From a virus, in IMG/VR virus record IMGVR_UViG_3300037558_002065, positions 1 through 21,594 of that record: DNA of 21,594 bases, one strand, 5' to 3'. The notes beneath the pieces are model-generated. The model saw nothing but the letters and a program-made list of their open reading frames with translations, was not told the DNA's origin and made no database searches. Shown here in pieces: positions 3,550 through 15,516 of the stretch (positions within the stretch are counted from its first letter, which is position 1; each line of letters begins with the position of its first letter). A program made the position numbers and the translations under genes.

Positions 3550-3660
3550 ATGATTGTCAAACGGCATCTGTGGCGTTCGTATGTGGAGGAAGCGCAACAG
3601 CATCTGGCAGAAGCCCAGGAGAAGTTAGGAGAACTCGATGATTGGACCGACCGTTCCTGA
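3550..3660 (+). CDS. Possible 36-residue leader peptide before nrdJ
   Basis: This short frame runs from ATG 3550 to a TGA at 3658-3660 and overlaps the first 23 bases of the reductase gene. The peptide is helical and charged, with Glu-Glu-Ala-Gln-Gln and Glu-Lys-Leu-Gly-Glu-Leu segments. No ribosome site precedes the ATG, only the terminator T-run and about 10 bases. Its value may be as a coupled leader for the reductase, or it may be chance. Its codon use is ordinary for the window. Confidence 0.35.
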   Translation: MIVKRHLWRSYVEEAQQHLAEAQEKLGELDDWTDRS

Positions 3661-5440
3661 ATGCGATGCAACTCACGCTGAGAAGTATCGTGGCAAAGGC
3701 GAGAATTTCAGGGAGGCGATGAACAGAATTGCCGCCTCTCTTCAAGATGACCATGACCACTACATGTCTTTCAGGAATATTCTCCTGAACATGCGGTTCA
3801 TGCCACCCGGCCGAGTTCAGGCCGCGATGGGTAGTCTCAAGAATGTTACGCCCTACAACTGTTTCGTGATGCCGACCATTCACGACAGTTTCACCGACGG
3901 ACCAACGGATGAAGAGCTCGCTGAACTCCGTCATGGTGAACACCCCTCCCTCTCCATCATGGATACTGCCAAGGCGGCAGCGATCACCATGCGCCAAGGC
4001 GGCGGCGTCGGCTACGATGTCAGCACCCTCCGGCCTCGTGGCGACCTTATCCGTGGTGTCCAGTCCACAACCGACGGGCCACTGGCCTTTGCTCCCATCT
4101 ATGATGCTGTCTGCCGAGCGACCTCGTCCGCTGGCAACCGACGAGGGGCGCAAATGCTGGTCATGCGGTGTGATCACCCGGACATTGAAACCTTCATCCG
4201 TGCGAAACAGGCGGCTCAGGAAGTCCCCTATGAATATCGCCCGTTGCGAGGCTTCAACATGTCTGTCGGTATTACTGACAAGTTGATGGAGTGCGTCCAG
4301 TCTGGCAAGCCATTCCCACTCACCTTTGGTGGCGAGGTCTACCGTGAGGTTGATCCTCAGGCGCTCTGGGAAATGATCATGCGTGGAACCTACGACTGGG
4401 CCGAACCAGGAGTCTTGTTCATCGACACGATCAATCGCATGAACAACCTCTATTATTGCGAAACGATCGCAGCGACGAATCCATGCGGCGAGCAGCCTCT
4501 GCCTCCGTACGGAGCCTGTCTCTTGGGCTCGTTCAACCTGCCACAATACCTCGTCAAGCACGATGGGGAGTGGGTCTTCAACTGGGATCAGTTGGAGTCT
4601 GATATTCCGGAAGTTGTTCGTGCGATGGACAATGTCGTTGATCGTGCTCGCTACCCTCTCCAGGAACAACGGATCGAAGCCCAAGCGAAGAGACGGATGG
4701 GTCTCGGTGTCACCGGTCTGGCGAACTGCATCGAAGCTATGGGCCGTCCCTACGGCAGCGAAAAGTTCATCGAACTTGAAGATCGCATCATGCGATTCAT
4801 CACGCGTCACTGCTATCTGTCCAGCGTGAATCTGGCTCAGCTTAAGGGACCATTTCCTCTCTTCGATGCTGACCTATATTGCGAAGGCGAGTTCATCAAA
4901 ACCCTGGATAAAGACGTTCAGGATAAGATCCGCAAGTACGGGATCAGGAACTCTCATCTCACCAGTGTCGCACCGACTGGTACCATCTCATTCTGTGCCG
5001 ACAACGTGTCGTCGGGTATTGAACCGATCTTTGGCTACTCGCAGAAACGCCGACAGATCATGACTGAGGGAACCATCGTCGTTGATGTTCCTGACTTCGG
5101 CGTCAATAAACTCGGTGTTCGTGGCAAGCGAGCCCAGGACGTCACAGCCGCTGAGCATGTCGCAGTTCTCTGCACCGCCCAGCGTCACATCGATTCGGCC
5201 GTCAGTAAAACCTGTAACGTGCCGACAGACTTCCCCTACAATGACTTCAAGAACCTTTATCTCATGGCCTACGAAGGGGGAGCTAAGGGCTGCACGACGT
5301 ATCGGCCGAACGGAAACTACGACGAAGTCGTCAAGTCTGTTGACATGGAAACCACTGCTGAGAAGAAGGATTTCGCGGAAGGCGAGGCTTGTTCGTTTGA
5401 CCCGGTCACCGGACAGCGTACTGGTGATTGCGCCGACTAA
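3638..5440 (+). CDS. nrdJ: Adenosylcobalamin-dependent (class II) ribonucleotide reductase
   Basis: This 600-residue enzyme would reduce ribonucleotides to deoxynucleotides using a B12-generated thiyl radical. The active-site pieces are visible: Cys75 (Tyr-Asn-Cys-Phe) and Cys294 (Gly-Ala-Cys) as the reducible pair, Asn281-Pro-Cys283-Gly-Glu285 as the catalytic triad segment with the radical cysteine, and Pro-Thr-Gly-Thr-Ile-Ser in the late barrel. The end of the barrel reads Cys-Asn-Val-Pro-Thr-Asp with a downstream Gly-Cys-Thr-Thr-Tyr-Arg, which is the class II pattern. Cys585 and Cys598 near the C-terminus could be the shuttle pair that accepts electrons from thioredoxin. There is no ATP-cone. 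The start at 3638 has TAGGAG at 3626-3631. It supplies dNTPs, so the host must provide or import cobalamin. Confidence 0.95.
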   Translation: MIGPTVPECDATHAEKYRGKGENFREAMNRIAASLQDDHDHYMSFRNILLNMRFMPPGRVQAAMGSLKNVTPYNCFVMPTIHDSFTDGPTDEELAELRHGEHPSLSIMDTAKAAAITMRQGGGVGYDVSTLRPRGDLIRGVQSTTDGPLAFAPIYDAVCRATSSAGNRRGAQMLVMRCDHPDIETFIRAKQAAQEVPYEYRPLRGFNMSVGITDKLMECVQSGKPFPLTFGGEVYREVDPQALWEMIMRGTYDWAEPGVLFIDTINRMNNLYYCETIAATNPCGEQPLPPYGACLLGSFNLPQYLVKHDGEWVFNWDQLESDIPEVVRAMDNVVDRARYPLQEQRIEAQAKRRMGLGVTGLANCIEAMGRPYGSEKFIELEDRIMRFITRHCYLSSVNLAQLKGPFPLFDADLYCEGEFIKTLDKDVQDKIRKYGIRNSHLTSVAPTGTISFCADNVSSGIEPIFGYSQKRRQIMTEGTIVVDVPDFGVNKLGVRGKRAQDVTAAEHVAVLCTAQRHIDSAVSKTCNVPTDFPYNDFKNLYLMAYEGGAKGCTTYRPNGNYDEVVKSVDMETTAEKKDFAEGEACSFDPVTGQRTGDCAD

Positions 5441-5544: not shown

Positions 5545-6306
5545 ATGAGTGATCCCAAATCTGTCGAATTCCAGGGCAAGACGTACACCCAAGATTCGCT
5601 TTCGAAGATGGACGAACAGGCGCTGCTCAGCCTCCGCAATATCGTCGCCGAAAATCTCGGCGTCGCCCGCATCAAGGGCTTCAAGGACATCGATCAGGCT
5701 CGCGACGCCACCTGGAAGGCCCTGCTGAAGTTCGACGATACCGACGATGCAGATCTCGCCGGCTCCGGCGACGGCGGCAAGCCCGCCAAGCCGAAGGAAC
5801 CGAAGGAGCCTCGCGTTGTCAAGGGCGCTCTGCCGGCAAAGGTCAAGCGGCCGACCCGCAATATGTTCCGCAAGATCGAGAAGATCAAGGAACCCGATCG
5901 CGTCAAGGATCGCTGGGACAACTACAAGGACGGCATGACGGTCCTGGAGACGATCGAGGGCGACAACATGACGCCGCTCGACATCTACTGGTACGCCGAG
6001 AACGGCTTCGTCAAGCTGCACGACCCGACCGAGGAAGAATATCAGGCCGGGATGGACGCGTGGTACAAGCGCGAGGGCCTGGAGAACCCGGCCGAGGCCA
6101 AGCGGAAGCGCGAGGAAGAGCGCGCCAAGGCGAAGGCCGAGCGTGAGGCCAAGAAGGCTGAAGAGGCCGAGGCCAAGGCGAAGGCGAAGGCCGAGAAGGA
6201 AGCGGCCAAGGCTGCCGAGAAGGAAGCCAAGGCGAAGGCCAAGGCCGAGGCTGAAGCCAAGAAGAAGGCCGAAGCCGAAGCTGCCGCCGCGAAGAAGTCC
6301 TCGTAA
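5545..6306 (+). CDS. Lys/Ala/Glu-rich helical protein of unknown function
   Basis: The protein has 253 residues from ATG 5545, which is 8 bases after AAGGAG. The ATG at 5539 is too close to that site. Residues 1-60 form a small domain with Ser-Leu-Arg-Asn-Ile-Val and Arg-Ile-Lys-Gly-Phe segments. A basic Pro/Lys linker follows (about 75-105), then a compact middle containing Asp-Arg-Trp-Asp-Asn-Tyr. The last 75 residues or so are an almost uninterrupted Lys/Ala/Glu/Arg helix, of the single-alpha-helix or TolA-like kind. Codons there are strongly GC-ending, and the DNA is a degenerate repeat of GCCAAG/GAGGCC triplets. No enzyme motif is visible. The charged helix and high-GC codons suggest an abundant structural or nucleic-acid-associated protein, but this is inference. 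The stop overlaps the next start as TAATG. Confidence 0.85.
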   Translation: MSDPKSVEFQGKTYTQDSLSKMDEQALLSLRNIVAENLGVARIKGFKDIDQARDATWKALLKFDDTDDADLAGSGDGGKPAKPKEPKEPRVVKGALPAKVKRPTRNMFRKIEKIKEPDRVKDRWDNYKDGMTVLETIEGDNMTPLDIYWYAENGFVKLHDPTEEEYQAGMDAWYKREGLENPAEAKRKREEERAKAKAEREAKKAEEAEAKAKAKAEKEAAKAAEKEAKAKAKAEAEAKKKAEAEAAAAKKSS

Positions 6307-7211
6307 TGGAAGCGCCGGTCAACACCGGCGCGTTCTTCGCCTTCATGCGGGAACGCGAGCAGGTCCGTCTCCAAAAGGAGGCGGGCTTGCCTCGTCCCTG
6401 GACTGATGATCCCATCCTCCAGGAATTCAAATTCACAAATGTGCGTCGGTTCCACGACTGGACCACCACTCAGCTCCGGGAGAATTTCTATTCCGAGAAC
6501 CGCAGCGACGATCGTCGTGCGATCTTGATGAACTGTGCTCTTTACCGTTACTTCGGCACCTTTGAATTCGCCGAGGCAGTTGGCTGGCAAGAGTACGACA
6601 CCTTCGACTTTGAGGAGATCATTGACACGGCTGCTCGCCGCCTGGACTCCAAACAACGGGTCTTCACAGGGGCTTACGTGATCACCAATCAGGGGATTAG
6701 CGCTCCCAAGCAAGAAGTTGTCGTCGATTACTTCCTGAGGGATCTTCACGCCAAAGTTCCTGAGCTTCTTAAAATCGTTCAAATGACAAGAAGCTGGCAG
6801 AAAGTGGCCGAAGCCATGTCCAAGATTGGCGGCTTCGGTGGCACCGGATTCATGACAAAGGAGATCCTCCTGGATACCATGATGACGGACTTCTGGGATG
6901 CTCCAGCTGATCAGGACGGCTACAAGCTCACGCTACCTGACGACTATGCAAGCTGGACTCCGATAGGCCCTGGAGCGCTCAGAGGGGCTGCTAGGCTGCT
7001 CGGTTACGAGTGGCCGGAGCATAACACCATCCGGCCAGCCAAGGCGCTGGAGGTGATCCTCAAGCTCGTCGAGGACCAATCCGAACACTGGCCCTCCGAA
7101 TATGGGCATCTGTATCCGACCGATGTTCAATTCCAACTGTGCGAGTTCGATAAATACCAGCGGGTCAAGCTGGTACAGGGTCGCCCTCGCTCCAAATATC
7201 GGCCGAGGTAA
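6306..7211 (+). CDS. Amino acid:DNA transferase / alpha-glutamyl/putrescinyl-thymine pyrophosphorylase-like protein
   Basis: The protein has 301 residues. It matches the helical family first described computationally as alpha-glutamyl/putrescinyl-thymine pyrophosphorylases, whose helical domain also occurs with 5-hmdU DNA kinases. Characteristic stretches are Arg-Glu-Arg near 15-18, Pro-Trp-Thr-Asp-Asp-Pro-Ile-Leu (31-38), Lys-Phe-Thr-Asn-Val-Arg-Arg (42-48) with Asp51, Tyr-Arg-Tyr-Phe-Gly-Thr-Phe (80-86), and Gly-Pro-Gly-Ala-Leu-Arg-Gly (221-227). Known relatives act on phosphorylated 5-hydroxymethyluracil in phage DNA, replacing the phosphate with an amino acid or amine to make hypermodified thymine. 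The gene overlaps the previous stop as TAATG and is probably coupled to it. No 5-hmdU kinase is in the window. Family membership is from remembered signature motifs. The exact substrate is unknown. Confidence 0.8.
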   Translation: MEAPVNTGAFFAFMREREQVRLQKEAGLPRPWTDDPILQEFKFTNVRRFHDWTTTQLRENFYSENRSDDRRAILMNCALYRYFGTFEFAEAVGWQEYDTFDFEEIIDTAARRLDSKQRVFTGAYVITNQGISAPKQEVVVDYFLRDLHAKVPELLKIVQMTRSWQKVAEAMSKIGGFGGTGFMTKEILLDTMMTDFWDAPADQDGYKLTLPDDYASWTPIGPGALRGAARLLGYEWPEHNTIRPAKALEVILKLVEDQSEHWPSEYGHLYPTDVQFQLCEFDKYQRVKLVQGRPRSKYRPR

Positions 7212-7213
7212 TT

Positions 7214-7475
7214 ATGAAGATACTCATCACCGGGGGAGCCGGATATGTCGGCTCCCATGTTGCCATTGAGGCATTGTTCGCAGGGCATGAAGTCCTGATT
7301 TATGACAACTATCTGAGCGCCTCCCGTAGAGCCTCATCCGGGAGACATTCAGCACAGTGTCGCGAACTGCAATCTCATCAACCAGGAAACAGGGTGGAAG
7401 CCCACTCGGACACTGGAAGATATGTGTCGCGATGCTTGGGAAGCGGAAAGTCTCCGCTTGTCATCTGAACGCTAA
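7214..7475 (+). pseudogene. galE: Internally deleted, frameshifted UDP-glucose 4-epimerase remnant
   Basis: The first 37 codons from ATG 7214 read as the start of GalE: Met-Lys-Ile-Leu-Ile-Thr-Gly-Gly-Ala-Gly-Tyr-Val-Gly-Ser-His, the NAD-binding Rossmann turn, then His-Glu-Val-Leu-Ile-Tyr-Asp-Asn. From about 7325 a different frame reads as the GalE C-terminus (Pro-Gly-Asp-Ile, then Thr-Gly-Trp-Lys-Pro-Thr-Arg-Thr-Leu-Glu-Asp-Met-Cys) and stops at TAA 7473-7475. In the starting frame translation stops at 7466-7468. A normal GalE has about 330-340 residues, so some 250 internal codons are gone, including the Tyr-x-x-x-Lys catalytic pair. A GAGG site at 7205-7208 remains. The protein cannot be an active epimerase. 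Confidence 0.85.
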
Positions 7476-7486
7476 CGGGTTATACT
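7458..7486 (+). promoter_or_regulatory. Near-consensus sigma-70-type promoter for the glycosyltransferase unit
   Basis: TTGTCA (7458-7463) and TATACT (7481-7486) are separated by exactly 17 bases, each one mismatch from consensus. The -35 lies in the dead galE 3' end and the -10 just after its stop. The spacing to the glycosyltransferase ribosome site (GGAGG, 7500-7504) suits a short leader. Confidence 0.65.
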
Positions 7487-7509
7487 GAAACCCTCAACTG
7501 GAGGTAACA

Positions 7510-8292
7510 ATGAAGATCCTGATCCCTTCTCGCTCTCGTCCCAAGACGATGAGTACGCCTTTTCAAATTCCTGAAGCCTATCAGGAAGATGTCCGGGTCT
7601 ACGTCGCTGTCGAGCAGAAAGCGGAATACGCCAAGGCGAATCCCGGCTTGAATATCCGCTCTGTCAGTACCCTGAACGACCTGCTCGGCAAGAAGCTGGA
7701 GCTGATGTCTCGTGATGTGGAAGATGAGCTCGTCATGTTGTGTGACGATGATTTCGTCTTCTTCCGCCGCATCGATCCGTTCGAGCCGCAGCTCCGCAAG
7801 ATGGAGGAGGACGACTGGGAAGATATGTTCGAACAGATCAACGGTCTGTTCGCATCGAACCCGAACCTCTACGGCGTCGGCATTTCCATGCGTCAGGGGA
7901 ACAACCGGCTGGAGCCCGAGGGCAACCCCAACACTCGTCTCAACGGCTGCATTATCTATCGGCGCTCGCTGTTCCTGGATGATCGTATCGAACACGATCG
8001 CATGAATCCCATGAACGACTTCGACGTCAACCTCCAGTTGCTGCGTCTCGGCTACGACAACCATCTGATCTCCGAGTTCTGCTACAATCAGGGCGGAACG
8101 AATGCGCCGGGTGGATCGTCGGACTATCGCACTCTGGACACGCAAGCGGCGTCGGCTCACAGGCTGGCTGAGCTCCATCCTGGGTTCGTCAACATTCGCC
8201 AGAAGAAAAACAAGACTGGCGATCCCTCCCTGCGCGAGCGGACCGAAGTCACGGTCTACTGGAAGAAGGCTCGCGCCTCCGCAAACTCGTAG
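7510..8292 (+). CDS. GT-A fold glycosyltransferase, candidate DNA-base glycosyltransferase
   Basis: The protein has 260 residues, with a GGAGG site at 7500-7504. It opens with Met-Lys-Ile-Leu-Ile-Pro-Ser-Arg-Ser-Arg-Pro, the beta1-loop typical of GT-A enzymes. It has a Cys-Asp-Asp-Asp-Phe segment (78-82), the expected metal/nucleotide-sugar Asp-x-Asp motif. The acceptor half contains Asn-Asp-Phe-Asp (169-172), Leu-Leu-Arg-Leu-Gly-Tyr (177-182) and Gly-Gly-Ser-Ser-Asp-Tyr-Arg (201-207). No membrane segment is visible. Phage enzymes of this type near nucleotide-modification genes have been proposed to glycosylate hydroxymethylated bases, which fits the neighbours here. Alternatives are glycosylation of host surface or phage proteins. 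The fold is fairly sure. The DNA substrate is inference. Confidence 0.7.
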   Translation: MKILIPSRSRPKTMSTPFQIPEAYQEDVRVYVAVEQKAEYAKANPGLNIRSVSTLNDLLGKKLELMSRDVEDELVMLCDDDFVFFRRIDPFEPQLRKMEEDDWEDMFEQINGLFASNPNLYGVGISMRQGNNRLEPEGNPNTRLNGCIIYRRSLFLDDRIEHDRMNPMNDFDVNLQLLRLGYDNHLISEFCYNQGGTNAPGGSSDYRTLDTQAASAHRLAELHPGFVNIRQKKNKTGDPSLRERTEVTVYWKKARASANS

Positions 8293-8301
8293 GGTGTGAA
8301 C

Positions 8302-8508
8302 ATGGAAGTCGGCGAGAAGTGCATCTGTCAGCACGATGATTGGTATAACGCTTTCGGTGACCGAAGCGAAGCCATTCATCGTGGGATGAGGCTCACTGTT
8401 TCCGGTCGCAAAGCAATCGCCGGTCAGCTCTACTACAGCTTTGAAGAAGTTGATGAAGAGAACTGGTACTGGTCACCCGGTTTCAAACCGATGAGGAACC
8501 TCAACTGA
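8302..8508 (+). CDS. Small phage protein of unknown function
   Basis: The protein has 68 residues. ATG 8302 has AGGGTG at 8291-8296. A GTG at 8296 is a less likely start. The sequence is rich in Trp, Tyr and Cys (Cys-Ile-Cys-Gln-His near the N-terminus) and ends in Trp-Ser-Pro-Gly-Phe-Lys-Pro-Met-Arg-Asn-Leu. It looks like one of the small beta-rich phage proteins with a C-terminal Phe-x-Pro motif. No function can be assigned. The stop shares one base with the next start (TGATG). Confidence 0.75.
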   Translation: MEVGEKCICQHDDWYNAFGDRSEAIHRGMRLTVSGRKAIAGQLYYSFEEVDEENWYWSPGFKPMRNLN

Positions 8509-8747
8509 TGCTGAATCCCACCAAGACAGCACTGGAAGCGCTCACGCTCGTCAACGGGAAATCCGGCGATCCCAGGTTGACGTTCGTCACTCTACTGACA
8601 GCAGCTTCCATCGCCGGTAAGATCATCGGCCTCGATCAGCGCGAAATTCGTCGCAAGCTGAAAGAGGTCGACGGACCTGTCACAATAATCTTCAACCAAA
8701 TTGCGGAGAAAAGCAATGCAGACAATCAAGGTCAGAAACGTTCATGA
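8508..8747 (+). CDS. Small helical protein of unknown function
   Basis: The protein has 79 residues, starts one base inside the previous stop and runs 32 bases into the TS-like gene. A GAGG lies at 8493-8496. The sequence is mostly helical: an Ala/Leu-rich first half, then Gln-Arg-Glu-Ile-Arg-Arg-Lys-Leu-Lys-Glu-Val. The last 12 residues, in the overlap, are polar and probably disordered. No family is recognised. Its coupling to the TS-like gene suggests a role at the same stage. Confidence 0.65.
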   Translation: MLNPTKTALEALTLVNGKSGDPRLTFVTLLTAASIAGKIIGLDQREIRRKLKEVDGPVTIIFNQIAEKSNADNQGQKRS

Positions 8748-9783
8748 GGCTCTGCAGAAGGGAATGTGCCTTCTGAACATGAACGGCATTCGCAGAGAAA
8801 GCAGGGTCGGCGATGTGCTGGTCATGCCCGAGCCAGTGACGACGCTCTACGAGAAGCCTGACGAGCGTGTCATCTTCTGGGCTGACAGGGATGCCAACCC
8901 GTTCTTCCATTTCATGGAAGGTCTGTGGATGCTCGCCGGGCGGAATGATGTTGCGTGGATTTCGCAATTCAACAGCACGATCAGCCAATTCAGCGATGAC
9001 GGCGTCAGCTTCCATGGTCCGTACGGATATCGCTGGATCAACCACTTCGCCAAGGAAGTTCCGGCCGATCCCGAAGTTCCCGAGGATGGCGGCGGTCTCT
9101 ACGTCCCATTCAATCAGCTGGAAACAGTCGTTCAGATGCTGAAGGCCAATCCCAATGAGCGGCGCTGTGTCGTTCAGATGTGGGACGCTGAAGTTGATCT
9201 CGGTCGGGTCGGCAAGGACGTTCCCTGCAACACGCAGATCTACTTCAAGATCGGCACCGACGGTCGGTTGAACATGACTGTCTGCAATCGCAGCAATGAC
9301 ATCATCTGGGGCGCATATGGGGCGAACGCTGTTCACATGTCCATGCTCCAGGAATTCATGGCTGCGTGGGTCGGCGTTCCGATCGGTCGCTACTGGCAAG
9401 TCAGCAATGACTTCCATGCCTATGTCGACGTCTTCGACAAGCACAAGTCCATCATTGAACACGAACCGAAGCCGTTCGATCTTCCTTACGAACACGGTCG
9501 CAAGGGTATGGCTGCGGTCACTCCCTTCCCGATGGTCAACGGTCCGATCGAGGAATGGATTTCGGACCTGATGATGTTCATGGACGAAGGGCCGGTGCCA
9601 GCCATGCGGGACCGCTTCTTCCGGAAGGTTGTCAACCCGATCTGGAATTCCTGGTTCGCCTGGAAGGACACCGAGGGCGACAAGGCGGCTCGTGCAGAAG
9701 CAGCTTTCCACGAACTCCAGGGCTGCAAAGCCACGGACTGGAAGCTGGCCTGCGAAGAGTGGCTTCTCCGGAGGGCATCATGA
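8716..9783 (+). CDS. Thymidylate synthase-fold enzyme, candidate dUMP hydroxymethylase
   Basis: The protein has 355 residues, with GGAGAA at 8705-8710 setting the ATG at 8716. Fold signatures are Asn-Pro-Phe-Phe-His-Phe-Met-Glu-Gly-Leu-Trp (61-71), Arg149-Arg150 for the phosphate, the nucleophile Cys171 (Val-Pro-Cys-Asn-Thr), Arg-Ser-Asn-Asp (192-195), Asn204 and His234-x-Tyr236. Asn204, after a one-residue insertion, aligns with the Asn that selects uracil in thymidylate synthase. dCMP hydroxymethylases carry Asp there, so dUMP is the likely substrate. The last 115 residues do not look like the usual synthase tail and extend the protein well beyond the typical 264 residues or so. It makes either dTMP or, in keeping with the amino acid:DNA transferase-class gene nearby, 5-hydroxymethyl-dUMP. 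Sequence alone cannot separate these. The stop overlaps the HD gene as ATGA. Confidence 0.85.
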   Translation: MQTIKVRNVHEALQKGMCLLNMNGIRRESRVGDVLVMPEPVTTLYEKPDERVIFWADRDANPFFHFMEGLWMLAGRNDVAWISQFNSTISQFSDDGVSFHGPYGYRWINHFAKEVPADPEVPEDGGGLYVPFNQLETVVQMLKANPNERRCVVQMWDAEVDLGRVGKDVPCNTQIYFKIGTDGRLNMTVCNRSNDIIWGAYGANAVHMSMLQEFMAAWVGVPIGRYWQVSNDFHAYVDVFDKHKSIIEHEPKPFDLPYEHGRKGMAAVTPFPMVNGPIEEWISDLMMFMDEGPVPAMRDRFFRKVVNPIWNSWFAWKDTEGDKAARAEAAFHELQGCKATDWKLACEEWLLRRAS

Positions 9784-10322
9784 GCTATCAACTCGAAACA
9801 GCAGTTCAGCGAGTGAAGTTCGCTCGCGAAGCGGGGGCGGTTCGCCGCCTCCACATTCACCGCATCATCGGTGAGTATGACATCGCTCAGCATACCTATG
9901 GCGCTCTGTGCCTGCTGAGGGTGCTGAATCCTGATGCTCCCTCTCGTCTCCTTTGGGCTATCCTGTCCCACGACAAGCCGGAGCGTCTCACTGGCGATAT
10001 TCCATCGCCGGCGAAATATAATTGTCACTGGTTCGACAAGGAGAAGTATGCTAAGCATGAGGATGAGATCCTTGCTGGCACCGGCTTCAACTGGGACGAG
10101 CTCACTCCTGAAGAAGAGCAGTGGCTGAAAGCAATCGACGCTTTGGAGTTCTTCCTTTTCTGTCTCGATCAAGAACAATTGGGTCACCGAGGGTTGTCAA
10201 AGCCCAAGAGGAAGATCATGCGCTATATCGAAATGGAAATCGATAATTGGCCCTCTGTCCCGGCTGCATTCTATGCGGAGCTGAAGACCGCTCCGTGGGA
10301 AATGTGTGACGAGCTCGGCTAG
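9780..10322 (+). CDS. HD-domain 5'-deoxynucleotidase (YfbR-like)
   Basis: The protein has 180 residues, ATGA-coupled to the TS-like gene. A metal-binding HD set is present: His38 (Ala-Gln-His-Thr), His64-Asp65 in Ser-His-Asp-Lys-Pro-Glu, and Asp120. The stretch Glu-Arg-Leu-Thr-Gly-Asp-Ile-Pro-Ser-Pro-Ala-Lys (68-79) closely parallels Glu-Val-Leu-Thr-Gly-Asp-Leu-Pro-Thr-Pro-Val-Lys of E. coli YfbR, which dephosphorylates dNMPs. Phage relatives such as DatZ hydrolyse a specific dNTP so that a modified one is used instead. Placed right after the TS-like gene, it may remove a competing canonical nucleotide such as dTMP. That target is inference. No PurZ, the partner of DatZ in 2-aminoadenine phages, is visible in this window. 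Confidence 0.87.
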   Translation: MSYQLETAVQRVKFAREAGAVRRLHIHRIIGEYDIAQHTYGALCLLRVLNPDAPSRLLWAILSHDKPERLTGDIPSPAKYNCHWFDKEKYAKHEDEILAGTGFNWDELTPEEEQWLKAIDALEFFLFCLDQEQLGHRGLSKPKRKIMRYIEMEIDNWPSVPAAFYAELKTAPWEMCDELG

Positions 10323-11516: not shown

Positions 11517-11567
11517 GGCATGGCATCTCGCAAAAAACACAACCCGAACTTAGGAGGAGCGATCCAG

Positions 11568-13589
11568 ATGAGTTTCTTCACACCGGAGAGCTCCTGGAGC
11601 CCTCCTAAGATTTCAGACCTCCCTTCCTGGGCTGGTGCAAAACGAATTGCACTTGACTGTGAGACAAAGGATGTTCAACTCCGTGATCTCGGTCCAGGTC
11701 CAAGGAGAGGAAGTTACACAACCGGATGGGGCTTCAAGATTGAAGGTGGTCCGAAGCACTATCTCCCGATAAGGCACGAGGGCGGTGATAACCTTCCTGT
11801 CGATGAAGTCCTGCGGTATCTGCGGGACAACTTGAAGAATTTCGATGGAGAGATCGTTGGTGCGAATCTGTCGTATGACATTGACTTCGCTGCGACCGAC
11901 GAATTGGAATTCCATCCCGATGTCAAGTTCCGTGATATACAGGTCGCAGATCCTCTGATATACGAACTTCACAAATCGTACAGCCTGAAGAACATTGGTG
12001 AGCGATGGGGCGTCAAAGGCAAAGAGACAGACGTTCTCTTCGAAGCTGCCCGGTCAATGGGGCTTGATCCTGGTCAGGGGATGTGGCGTCTTCCTGCTCG
12101 CTACGTTGGCGAGTACGCTGAGAACGATGTGGACGCGCCATTGCTCATCTACGAGAAGCAGCGCGAAGCTATCGATCGTGATGATCTCTGGCAGGTCTTT
12201 GATCTGGAGACCGCGCTCTTGCCAGTCCTAGTGAAGATGCGACAACGAGGCGTTCGGATTGATTTCAACAAACTCCGTTCCATTGAGAACTGGTCGCATA
12301 CCGAGGAGACCGAAGCCCTCCGCCTCATCAAGCATCATACTGGTGTTCATATTGATGTCGGCGATGTCTGGAAGGCTGGAGCTCTCGCCCCGGCTCTAGA
12401 ATCTATTGGCGTGAAGTTGAAGAAGACGAGCACTGGAGCACCGTCAATTGATGCCGAGATGTTGGATGGTTTAGATCATCCTGTCGCTAAGGCGATGAAA
12501 CATGCTCGTAAGGTGAATAAGATGCGGACCACGTTCGCAGCTTCAATTCACAAGTATCAGACCAACGGGCGAATCCATTGCTCCTTCCATCAGATCATTG
12601 CACAGTCACAAGATGATCGTGATCAGAAGGGCGTCCGGTATGGTCGTCTCTCTGCAACAGACCCCAATCTCCAACAGCAGCCAAGCCCTGACCGTGATCC
12701 AGTCATCGCCGGCGAATGGCGCAAGATCTTCATCCCGGAGGAAGGGGCGATCTGGGGCTGTAACGACTATTCTCAGCAAGAGCCTCGCTGGACGACACAC
12801 TTCGCCGCTCTCATGGATCTCCCCAAGGCTCAGGAAGCTGCCAAGCGGTATCGTGATGATCCGACCACTGACAACCACGATATGATGACAAGACTCATCC
12901 ATGGGGATGAGCAGGTGGACGAATGGTTCGCGAATGATCTCAAGGGAGCCTACAAGGTGAACCGGGGGTATTCCAAGAATATCTTCCTCGGCTTGTGCTA
13001 CGGCGAAGGTGGAGCGAAGCTCTGCATCGATATTGGTCAGCCGACTCGCTGGGCTTTGATCAAAGGCTATGGGCGCAACAAGGAAATGGAATATTTCGAA
13101 AATCGGCATGACGCTTGGAAAGCCCGAGCAGGTGCCGGTGAGGGATATATCCGTGAAGTCGCTGGTCTGGAAGGCCAAGAAATCCTCGACAACTTCGATG
13201 CCGAAGTTCCATATGTTCGCAAGATCGCTTCCAAGGCCAGCGAGCGAGCTGAATCTGTCGGTTATGTGAAGACAGTCATGGGTCGCCGCCTACACTTTGA
13301 ACAGAGGCCGGATGGAACCTACGATTGGACACATAAGGCTCTCAACCGTGTGATCCAGGGTTCGTCTGCTGACCAAACGAAAAAGGCTGTCGTTGATCTG
13401 GATCGGGCTGGCTACTATCTTCAGCTACAGGTCCACGACGAAACCGACGGCAGCTTTGGTTCAGTCGCTGAGGCGAAGGCCGCTGGTGACATCATGAAGA
13501 ATAGCATTCTTGATGTCTGCTCACCTCTCGTACCTTTTAACGTGGACACGGAATGCGGTCCCTCATGGGGAGAAATCAAAGGTGTCTGA
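11568..13589 (+). CDS. polA: Family A DNA polymerase with 3'-5' exonuclease
   Basis: The protein has 673 residues from ATG 11568 (AGGAGG at 11552-11557). ATG 11520 would add 16 residues but has a poorer site. The N-terminal DnaQ-like proofreading domain has Asp30-x-Glu32, Ser-Tyr-Asp-Ile-Asp, and Tyr-x-x-x-Asp in Tyr-Ala-Glu-Asn-Asp-Val-Asp. In the polymerase domain, motif A is Asp400-Tyr-Ser-Gln-Gln-Glu-Pro-Arg, motif B has Arg466, Lys470 and Tyr478, and motif C is His623-Asp-Glu. Motif A carries Gln-Glu-Pro-Arg where Ile-Glu-Leu-Arg is usual. The position equal to E. coli Phe762 is Leu474. There is no 5' nuclease domain, as usual in phages. It replicates the phage genome with the primase-helicase and ligase encoded downstream. 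Confidence 0.96.
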   Translation: MSFFTPESSWSPPKISDLPSWAGAKRIALDCETKDVQLRDLGPGPRRGSYTTGWGFKIEGGPKHYLPIRHEGGDNLPVDEVLRYLRDNLKNFDGEIVGANLSYDIDFAATDELEFHPDVKFRDIQVADPLIYELHKSYSLKNIGERWGVKGKETDVLFEAARSMGLDPGQGMWRLPARYVGEYAENDVDAPLLIYEKQREAIDRDDLWQVFDLETALLPVLVKMRQRGVRIDFNKLRSIENWSHTEETEALRLIKHHTGVHIDVGDVWKAGALAPALESIGVKLKKTSTGAPSIDAEMLDGLDHPVAKAMKHARKVNKMRTTFAASIHKYQTNGRIHCSFHQIIAQSQDDRDQKGVRYGRLSATDPNLQQQPSPDRDPVIAGEWRKIFIPEEGAIWGCNDYSQQEPRWTTHFAALMDLPKAQEAAKRYRDDPTTDNHDMMTRLIHGDEQVDEWFANDLKGAYKVNRGYSKNIFLGLCYGEGGAKLCIDIGQPTRWALIKGYGRNKEMEYFENRHDAWKARAGAGEGYIREVAGLEGQEILDNFDAEVPYVRKIASKASERAESVGYVKTVMGRRLHFEQRPDGTYDWTHKALNRVIQGSSADQTKKAVVDLDRAGYYLQLQVHDETDGSFGSVAEAKAAGDIMKNSILDVCSPLVPFNVDTECGPSWGEIKGV

Positions 13590-14223
13590 GATTTCTTCAT
13601 ATAGCGTTATGCAGATCGACCCCAAATCGGCGAAGATCTATATTCGGGCGAATCATTACAGCAAAGGATGCCACAACGGACCCTCGCCGTGTTTCGGTCT
13701 ATTTGACGCTGACTATGAACTTATCGGAGTTCTCATGTTCGCAGTGTCCTGCTCTGAGAACGTTCGCAGAGTCGTCTTCGGCATTGGACAAGAGCACATG
13801 ACAATCGAATTGCATCGTCTTCACATACAGGATGTCACACCTAAGAACGCGGAGTCGTGGTTCATCGCACGGTGTATGCGAATGCTTAAGAAAATCAAGC
13901 CAGAGATAAGGGTTGTCGTATCCTATTCCGATGGGACACAGGGTCACGATGGTACTATCTACGCTGCCTCAAATTTCATTCTCACCGGAAAAGAACTAAG
14001 GGAGAATTACGGATATCATTATTTGGACGAGAATGGACGCATTCGTCACACTCGTCAGAACGGTGTCAACATAAAGCCGAACGAGGCCAAGGCTCGTGGC
14101 TGGCAGGTTATCTATAGGAGTGGGAAGAGGCGTTGGCATTTCCCACTTGGAGACTCGTTGTCGGACAATCGAAGGATACGGAGAAGACTACTCGAAATTG
14201 CAAAGGAGAATAACTGTGTCTAA
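13582..14223 (+). CDS. Mom-like DNA-modification protein (GNAT-fold)
   Basis: The protein has 213 residues from GTG 13582, with GGGGAG at 13567-13572, overlapping the polymerase stop by 8 bases. It matches the phage Mu Mom family, which makes a methylcarbamoyl adenine in phage DNA to block host restriction. Signatures are Asn-His-Tyr-Ser-Lys-Gly (24-29), Phe-Gly-Leu-Phe (38-41), Glu-Leu-His-Arg-Leu (76-80), Lys-Asn-Ala-Glu-Ser-Trp-Phe-Ile-Ala-Arg (88-97), and Tyr-Ser-Asp with Gly-His-Asp-Gly-Thr-Ile-Tyr-Ala-Ala (115-129). The C-terminus is basic (Arg-Arg-Ile-Arg-Arg-Arg), suited to DNA contact. No Com-like translational activator is seen. The substrate could be adenine, or an amine on a hypermodified thymine. 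The family call is fairly firm. Confidence 0.85.
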   Translation: MSEISSYSVMQIDPKSAKIYIRANHYSKGCHNGPSPCFGLFDADYELIGVLMFAVSCSENVRRVVFGIGQEHMTIELHRLHIQDVTPKNAESWFIARCMRMLKKIKPEIRVVVSYSDGTQGHDGTIYAASNFILTGKELRENYGYHYLDENGRIRHTRQNGVNIKPNEAKARGWQVIYRSGKRRWHFPLGDSLSDNRRIRRRLLEIAKENNCV

Positions 14224-14446
14224 GATCTGGCGACATAAGAAAACTGGAGATCTGTACGTGATCATCACGGAGAACTTCTTAATTGAGGCCACTATGAAGC
14301 AGGGTGTCCTCTATCGCAGCTTGTCCGATGGACGAGATTGGTGCAGACCACGTGAGGAATTCATGGATGGTCGATTCGAATCCATGAACTCGATGGAGTA
14401 CAAGGGCGAGGGTAAGATTGAGCTCTCACATTTGGACGCTTTTTAG
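14216..14446 (+). CDS. DUF1653-like small protein
   Basis: The protein has 76 residues from GTG 14216, with AAAGGAG ending 7-8 bases before it. It overlaps the Mom-like gene by 8 bases. The pattern Trp-Arg-His-Lys-Lys-Thr-Gly-Asp-Leu-Tyr-Val-Ile followed by Val-Leu-Tyr-Arg-Ser-Leu and Trp-Cys-Arg-Pro-Arg-Glu-Glu-Phe is that of DUF1653, small SH3-like proteins of unknown role common in phages. Its tight coupling to the Mom-like gene is the only functional hint. Confidence 0.75.
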   Translation: MSKIWRHKKTGDLYVIITENFLIEATMKQGVLYRSLSDGRDWCRPREEFMDGRFESMNSMEYKGEGKIELSHLDAF

Positions 14447-14461
14447 AAAAGGAGAAACAAT

Positions 14462-15013
14462 ATGCAATCCAAAGATCTCGGTGTGGTTCTCGTACACGAG
14501 TTCCACCAAGTCTTCAACTGTGCGATCGGTAGCTCGGTGGGGCCAAATATCCCGACGTTCAATGATGACATCTCACTCGGTGATCTCGCCAGCTATGCAA
14601 GCGCGGCAGCAGAACTAGGCGAGCGTCTGAAGACCTATGCCGCTTCGGCGAAGGAACAGGGCGACGAGGCCGGAGCGCTGCTCCTCATCCGTCTTCAGCT
14701 GATCCAGGAAGAGCTTGCTGAACTGGCGTATGCTTTCACCAATCGCGATATCGTCGAGAGCTTCGACGCCCTGGTCGATCTCTCCTACGTCGTTGATGGA
14801 ACCTACATCACTCTTGAGCTTCATGAACACAAGGAGGCTGGACTTCTGGAAGTTCATCGTTCCAACATGAGCAAGTTGGACGAGAATGGTCAGCCCATCA
14901 TCAGCGATGCTGGTCGGGTAGTGAAGGGTCCGAACTATTCACCACCTGATCTGGCGAAAGTTCTTCGCGCTGGAACCCAGAAGCCGATGTACTCACTGGA
15001 GGATGATGAATGA
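14462..15013 (+). CDS. MazG-like all-alpha NTP pyrophosphohydrolase
   Basis: The protein has 183 residues with a clear AAAGGAG site. It carries the all-alpha dNTP pyrophosphatase (MazG/PRA-PH) signature: Gln-Glu83-Glu84-Leu-Ala-Glu87 on one helix and Asp102-Ala-Leu-Val-Asp106 on the next, which bind Mg2+. A phage-type start (Val-His-Glu-Phe-His-Gln-Val-Phe, 11-18) precedes them. The end holds Ser-Asn-Met-Ser-Lys-Leu and Lys-Gly-Pro-Asn-Tyr-Ser-Pro-Pro-Asp-Leu (139-148 for the latter, approximate), typical of phage dNTP pyrophosphohydrolases. It converts a dNTP to a dNMP plus pyrophosphate. Next to the dCTP deaminase-like gene (ATGA overlap), it may supply dUMP or trim unwanted triphosphates. 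Confidence 0.88.
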   Translation: MQSKDLGVVLVHEFHQVFNCAIGSSVGPNIPTFNDDISLGDLASYASAAAELGERLKTYAASAKEQGDEAGALLLIRLQLIQEELAELAYAFTNRDIVESFDALVDLSYVVDGTYITLELHEHKEAGLLEVHRSNMSKLDENGQPIISDAGRVVKGPNYSPPDLAKVLRAGTQKPMYSLEDDE

Positions 15014-15516
15014 CGATCCTCAGCGCACAGACTATCTCTTCTCTCTGTCATCCTCCAGAGGTAACTGGTCTTGAACCAATGCTGGAGCCATTCTGTGTCC
15101 GGACAAGACATGAAGGGGTCACCTTCGGTCTCAGCGCGGCGGGCTACGATGTTCGTGTTGAGTTTGACGAGAGCGGTTCTATTGAAGAAGTTCTTCTTGA
15201 ACCTGGAGACTTCATACTGGCATCTACGATTGAGCGGTTCCACATGCCGACAGATGTCGTTGGCATTGTCCACGATAAGTCCACTTGGGCTCGTCGTGGG
15301 ATCGCTGTTCAGAACACGGTTATCGAGCCGGGCTGGTCAGGCTTTCTTACCCTGGAGCTCACCAATCATGGAATTGAACCTGTGAGACTGATCAGGGGAA
15401 TGGGCATTGCCCAGATCCTATTTCATCGTCTTGACTCGCCAACTACTATTCCCTATGAGGGCAAGTATCAGGCCCAGGAGAGGGGACCAGTGGGGGCGAA
15501 AAACGATGGCAACTAA
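15010..15516 (+). CDS. dCTP deaminase/dUTPase-fold enzyme
   Basis: The protein has 168 residues, with GGAGG at 14998-15002, ATGA-coupled to the MazG-like gene. Trimeric dUTPase-superfamily motifs are Gly-Tyr-Asp-Val-Arg (45-49), Ser91-x-x-Ala-Arg-Arg-Gly (91-97), Glu-Pro-Gly-Trp-Ser-Gly (106-111) with Leu-Thr-Leu-Glu116, and Gly-Ile-Ala-Gln-Ile-Leu-Phe (132-138). The Pro-Gly-Trp-x-Gly followed by an acidic Glu is as in dCTP deaminases, where that Glu is catalytic. The dUTPase-only Asp is replaced. It therefore probably makes dUTP, or dUMP directly if bifunctional, from dCTP and feeds the TS-like enzyme. Whether the substrate is dCTP or a modified pyrimidine cannot be told here. Confidence 0.85.
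   Translation: MTILSAQTISSLCHPPEVTGLEPMLEPFCVRTRHEGVTFGLSAAGYDVRVEFDESGSIEEVLLEPGDFILASTIERFHMPTDVVGIVHDKSTWARRGIAVQNTVIEPGWSGFLTLELTNHGIEPVRLIRGMGIAQILFHRLDSPTTIPYEGKYQAQERGPVGAKNDGN

Follow-up and report, generated by a model that had tools for sequence, protein, structure and literature searches.

The gene at positions 13582-14223 of a 21,594-base IMG/VR fragment from an uncultured phage (the window, that is, the whole stretch of DNA that was analyzed) encodes a genuine relative of Mom, the enzyme with which phage Mu camouflages its DNA. It lies immediately behind the DNA polymerase gene, and the locus as a whole is best explained by a Mom-type adenine modifier that was probably inserted on top of an hmU-type thymine modification system with a glycosyltransferase (GT), a reading in which we have good but not full confidence. 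The enzyme belongs to a known family; the unusual part is the combination and the clean insertion. The features of the Mom locus are as follows.

11520-13589, plus strand: family A DNA polymerase (polA), 689 amino acids (PF00476, 2.1e-39)
13582-13592, plus strand: 5′ junction GTGTCTGAGAT, Mom GTG start over polA TGA stop (sequence and empty-site alignment)
13582-14223, plus strand: Mom-family protein, 213 amino acids, GTG start (PF25680, phrog_1384, PDB 8bv8, conserved residues)
14216-14226, plus strand: 3′ junction GTGTCTAAGAT, GTG start of the next gene over Mom TAA stop
14216-14446, plus strand: small gene, 76 amino acids, found directly after polA in the relatives L012 to L014 (empty-site alignment)

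To determine the identity of the 13582-14223 protein, we started with a profile search, which placed it inside the Mom family (PF25680, E=1.7e-35, 123 bits against a cut-off of 27.1). The same frame matched phrog_1384, annotated as “Mom-like DNA modification protein” (E=3.6e-44), and comparison by sequence with Mu Mom (PDB 8bv8, “Methylcarbamoylase mom”) gave E=4e-13. Of the 202 model positions of PF25680, the alignment spans 2-149, and the protein is divergent toward its C terminus; identity to Mu Mom is about 22-27%. All motifs cited in the original prediction of an intact Mom signature were present, i.e., NHYSK (residues 24-28), ELHRL (76-80), KNAES (88-92), and GHDGTIY (121-127). In an alignment of Mom proteins from 14 phages, every invariant residue was found in the window protein, including H25, Y26, E76, R79, N89, S114, D117, and Y127, and across 44 Moms the invariant positions were E76, L77, R79, N89, S92, H122, G124, Y127, A129, and N131. 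Window S92 pairs in the alignment with S124 of Mu Mom, the residue changed in 8bv8, whose title reads “inactive mutant S124A.” A structure predicted from the 44 Mom sequences had a mean pLDDT of 89.3 and a pTM of 0.85. When this model was searched with Foldseek, the first PDB matches were the two 8bv8 chains (E=2.4e-12 and 1.2e-11; probability 1.00, TM 0.65/0.68), while ordinary GNATs ranked below them, at ~2e-6 or weaker. The frame is full length and has no internal stops. The protein is most likely a working CoA-dependent DNA modifier, with a putative activity, product, and base specificity that we infer from its relationship to Mu Mom. The two proteins have in common their sequence family, a GNAT-like fold, the conserved H/Y/E/R/N/S/D/Y residues including S124, and a start that overlaps the upstream gene, which is com in Mu and polA in the window. 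Unlike Mu Mom, the window Mom is a single insertion within a replication module.

The family is widely distributed. Contrary to the earlier statement that Mom alone is known from Mu-like phages, 250 phage records contained a homologue by tblastn (E<=1e-5), among them records of phages of Vibrio (including ICP1), Paenibacillus, Enterococcus, Proteus, Microbacterium, Mycobacterium, Salmonella, and others. According to a survey of jumbo phages (PMC7824862), members of this family also occur in the genomes of both phages and bacteria. The closest homologue of the window Mom was gp215 of Halogranum tailed virus 1 (HGTV-1), with 38% identity over 98% of the length by tblastn, and in a 57-row tree the two formed a supported pair (100/96) apart from Mu. 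HGTV-1 differs in being a haloarchaeal virus in which gp215 sits in another gene neighborhood, and neither HMUDK_hel nor the kinase was found in it. Overlap of Mom with a family A polymerase gene was seen in two further lineages, L155 and Microbacterium phage WaterT. Because identity to Mu Mom is so low, an enzyme that acts on adenine might nonetheless differ from Mu Mom in the acyl group it transfers or in the sequence it recognizes. The distance from Mu (about 27% identity over the alignment) and the grouping with HGTV-1 would fit such a divergence; however, the family-conserved residues, including the equivalent of Mu S124, are intact, and we consider a changed acyl group or target unlikely.

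As originally proposed, the Mom start overlaps the polymerase stop, by 8 nt (13582-13589). At both junctions, GTGTCTGAGAT and GTGTCTAAGAT, a GTG start overlaps the preceding stop by 8 nt; the junctions are 11 bp each and identical at 10 of 11 positions, and the inserted Mom unit between them measures 634 bp. The three closest relatives, L012, L013, and L014 (polymerase 82-85% identical), display the empty site, with polA followed by the 76-residue gene, and in their alignment with the window the gap opens at the stop/start overlap. Mom was absent from all 80 polA-related loci, which gives a frequency of 1/81 when the window is included, and was not found by profile search in 79 whole contigs (32 + 47); the same model recovered Mom in all eight control records. 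These absences led us to reject Mom as part of the thymine cassette. Recombination between the junction repeats might have removed Mom from the relatives, yet gain is the simpler account given that the gene is missing from the 80 loci and the 79 contigs. Mom probably entered the genome as one gene, inserted precisely between polA and its downstream neighbor and coupled to them in translation. Such rarity, together with the lack of a close homologue for a selection test, might also suit a passenger gene without present function, decaying or silent, but a full-length frame without stops, conserved residues, translational coupling kept on both sides, and a confident predicted fold make this very unlikely. 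The GC content of Mom is 47.7%, compared to 53.5% for the window. Low GC was dropped as proof of foreign origin, since the primase (49.0%) and one more gene (46.2%) are also low. The relatives L028, L030, L032, and L050 encode methyltransferase-like (VLDIGANIG) and short HNH-like proteins immediately after polA, which gives this slot the look of a site for accessory genes.

The remaining features of the window to which we refer are listed below.

6306-7211, plus strand: HMUDK_hel protein (also annotated aGPT-PPlase1), stand-alone, without kinase domain (PF18723, 1.4e-33)
7214-7468, plus strand: NAD-dependent epimerase remnant, 84 amino acids (intact at 316 amino acids in L014/L195)
7510-8292, plus strand: TAGT-type GT, 260 amino acids (PF20691, 1.6e-08; phrog_842, 1.4e-25)
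8716-9783, plus strand: thymidylate synthase (TS)-type protein, presumed dUMP hydroxymethylase (PF00303; phrog_5131, 2.3e-125)
9783-10322, plus strand: HD-domain 5′-deoxynucleotidase-like protein (PF12917, 1.4e-06; phrog_6047)
14462-15013, plus strand: MazG-like nucleotide pyrophosphohydrolase (PF01503, phrog_671)
15010-15516, plus strand: dCTP deaminase (TIGR02274, above cut-off)

By sequence, the phage belongs with the M6/PaMx11-type phages (Mesyanzhinovviridae). Its polymerase shares 49-54% identity with the enzymes of Mesyanzhinovviridae (M6, YuA, PaMx11, Ab18, and CN1) and phage Simon and up to 85% with those of IMG/VR relatives, and the order Dda helicase, ribonucleotide reductase (RNR), HMUDK_hel, TS, HD protein, polA, VRR-NUC, primase is largely common to the window and this family. 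A DpoZ-type aminoadenine polymerase was rejected for the window (NF038380, 260 bits against a cut-off of 500). Positions 3638-5440 encode a class II-type reductase (NrdJ, TIGR02504), and PaMx11 and Lucjan have an NrdA/NrdB-type enzyme.

The co-occurrence of Mom with a thymine-modification set, on which the original prediction relied, stands insofar as the TS-like protein, HMUDK_hel, and the GT lie in the same gene run; stable membership of Mom in that set does not, given the 80 polA-related loci without it. The TS-type protein is 47% identical to M6 gp58 and keeps the active-site Cys and Asn, although it could instead be an ordinary thymidylate synthase. HMUDK_hel is the orthologue of M6 gp55. 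Downstream of the 84-residue epimerase remnant, the C-terminal coding sequence of the epimerase is still visible; the intact copy lies at L014:5362-6312. HMUDK_hel, GT, and TS follow each other in that order on one strand without a kinase at window positions 6306-9783, and most relatives are alike. In most close relatives the GT between HMUDK_hel and TS is either GT4-like (~430 amino acids) or, as in the window, of the TAGT type (~260 amino acids). In L015, L016, L051, L207, L221, and L236, the same interval carries radical SAM/SPASM proteins, some with FkbM methyltransferases, beside GTs, and these might possibly tailor the sugar or base further. In pelagiphages, TS, aGPT-PPlase1 (the HMUDK_hel family), and a glucosyltransferase have been described as associated near polA (PMC9599517); the four gene types are the same as those near polA in the window, and the accessible part of that report mentions neither Mom nor an alternation of GT and kinase.

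M6 and PaMx11 share with the window orthologous TS and HMUDK_hel proteins and the order Dda helicase, RNR, HMUDK_hel, TS, HD, polA, primase. Between RNR and TS, they carry an amino acid:DNA transferase (ADDT, PF18724), a 5-hmdU DNA kinase, and tailoring enzymes, namely PLP and radical SAM enzymes in M6 and an FAD enzyme and a GNAT in PaMx11. In contrast, the window is without the kinase, the ADDT, and the PLP, radical SAM, FAD, and GNAT enzymes, and has the GT instead and Mom in addition. Searches with Pfam models and tblastn found neither the kinase (PF18748) nor the ADDT in the window or in any of 24 related contigs of up to 77 kb searched whole, and the local kinase profile was empty on the window proteins. 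As a control, the kinase model recovered the kinase in M6, G025, and G030 but scored PaMx11 below the cut-off, which leaves room for a highly divergent kinase that escaped the search. The 21.6-kb window is a fragment and missing genes could lie elsewhere, but whole relatives of 50-77 kb lack them too. In a gene matrix of the 80 polA-related loci, the kinase and ADDT were absent at >=60% polymerase identity and frequent in more distant loci. With neither gene found in these searches, an amine-bearing thymine made in the window phage was rejected.

To investigate which partner accompanies HMUDK_hel, we scanned IMG/VR for its loci (L194-L273). Among the 80 loci most similar to the query, which are related to each other and in some cases fragments, 63 had a GT without a kinase, 9 had a kinase without a GT, and none had both, a GT being counted if it lay within 7 kb of HMUDK_hel and matched profiles seeded from these same loci. 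The rest had neither (seven loci) or an ADDT only (one locus). The kinase-bearing reference phages were likewise without such a GT, and in Brevibacterium phage LuckyBarnes, HMUDK_hel and TS are accompanied by two TAGT genes but no kinase. This distribution suggests an exchangeable partner, and our reading is that HMUDK_hel helps to present hmU in DNA to its catalytic partner, kinase or GT. A sequence search of the PDB returned no relative of HMUDK_hel, and its fold matches were weak (8-oxoguanine glycosylase, E=0.09; PaMx11 PUGT, E=0.72). The modeled resemblance to a DNA glycosylase, at E=0.09, would be in line with an hmU-presenting role and proves nothing.

Mom and HMUDK_hel rarely occur together elsewhere. 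HMUDK_hel was found in 0 of 13 Mom phages searched whole and in 1 of 50 Mom contigs, G033 (L114/L274, IMG/VR 3300035507_000073), so a pairing unique to the window was rejected. This contig encodes Mom, HMUDK_hel (194.6 bits), a PF18748 kinase (36 bits), a TS-family protein, and a family A polymerase. Its Mom was placed on another branch of the tree than the window Mom, pointing to at least two separate origins of the combination. In the TS-family protein of G033, Asp (GFPYD) takes the place of the Asn of the window TS-type protein (GAN), which in the TS family may be a sign of a dCMP-type enzyme.

Of the two options offered by the original prediction, we prefer that of two different modified bases, as Mom lies in a gene run with the thymine set. 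The other, in which a relative of Mom would acylate the amine of a hypermodified thymine, could appeal to that shared gene run and to the GNAT within the thymine cassette of the relative PaMx11, but it is hardly credible, as ADDT and kinase (PF18724 and PF18748) are missing from the window and its 24 relatives and GT and kinase never occur together at the 80 HMUDK_hel loci, the PaMx11 protein (gp48) is an ordinary GNAT (Acetyltransf_1) without a Mom match, every sampled phage of the clade with the same thymine set is without Mom, and many Mom phages are without HMUDK_hel.

An adenine-N6 modification stacked on an hmU-type, probably glycosylated, thymine fits best. According to this scheme, Mom, with its translation coupled to that of polA, would act during or after replication on adenine N6 in phage DNA, and its product would be methylcarbamoyl-adenine, as in Mu; the acylated adenine would block restriction enzymes. 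The TS-type enzyme, HMUDK_hel, and the GT would together make a modified and perhaps glycosylated hmU that replaces some thymine. The phage DNA would then carry two unrelated modifications, an acyl type on some adenines and a sugar type on some thymines. A more specific version, which we rate at somewhat less than even chances, combines an A:T pair doubly modified with Mom acyl-adenine and glycosylated hmU with a thymine system of modular design, where HMUDK_hel acts as an hmU-DNA-binding subunit and its catalytic partner is exchanged between kinase and GTs.

Each half of the pairing, Mom and the putative thymine-rebuilding set, is of a known kind, but the pairing is unusual, and adenine and thymine alike may be disguised in this virus. 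Mom would represent a single mobile gene, distantly shared with an archaeal virus, that joined a replication module in a phage with a DNA disguise already in place. The case makes it possible to test an additive effect of adenine and thymine modifications against restriction, as well as whether HMUDK_hel, named after the kinase, serves glycosyltransferases in many phages, a question that reaches beyond the Mom gene.
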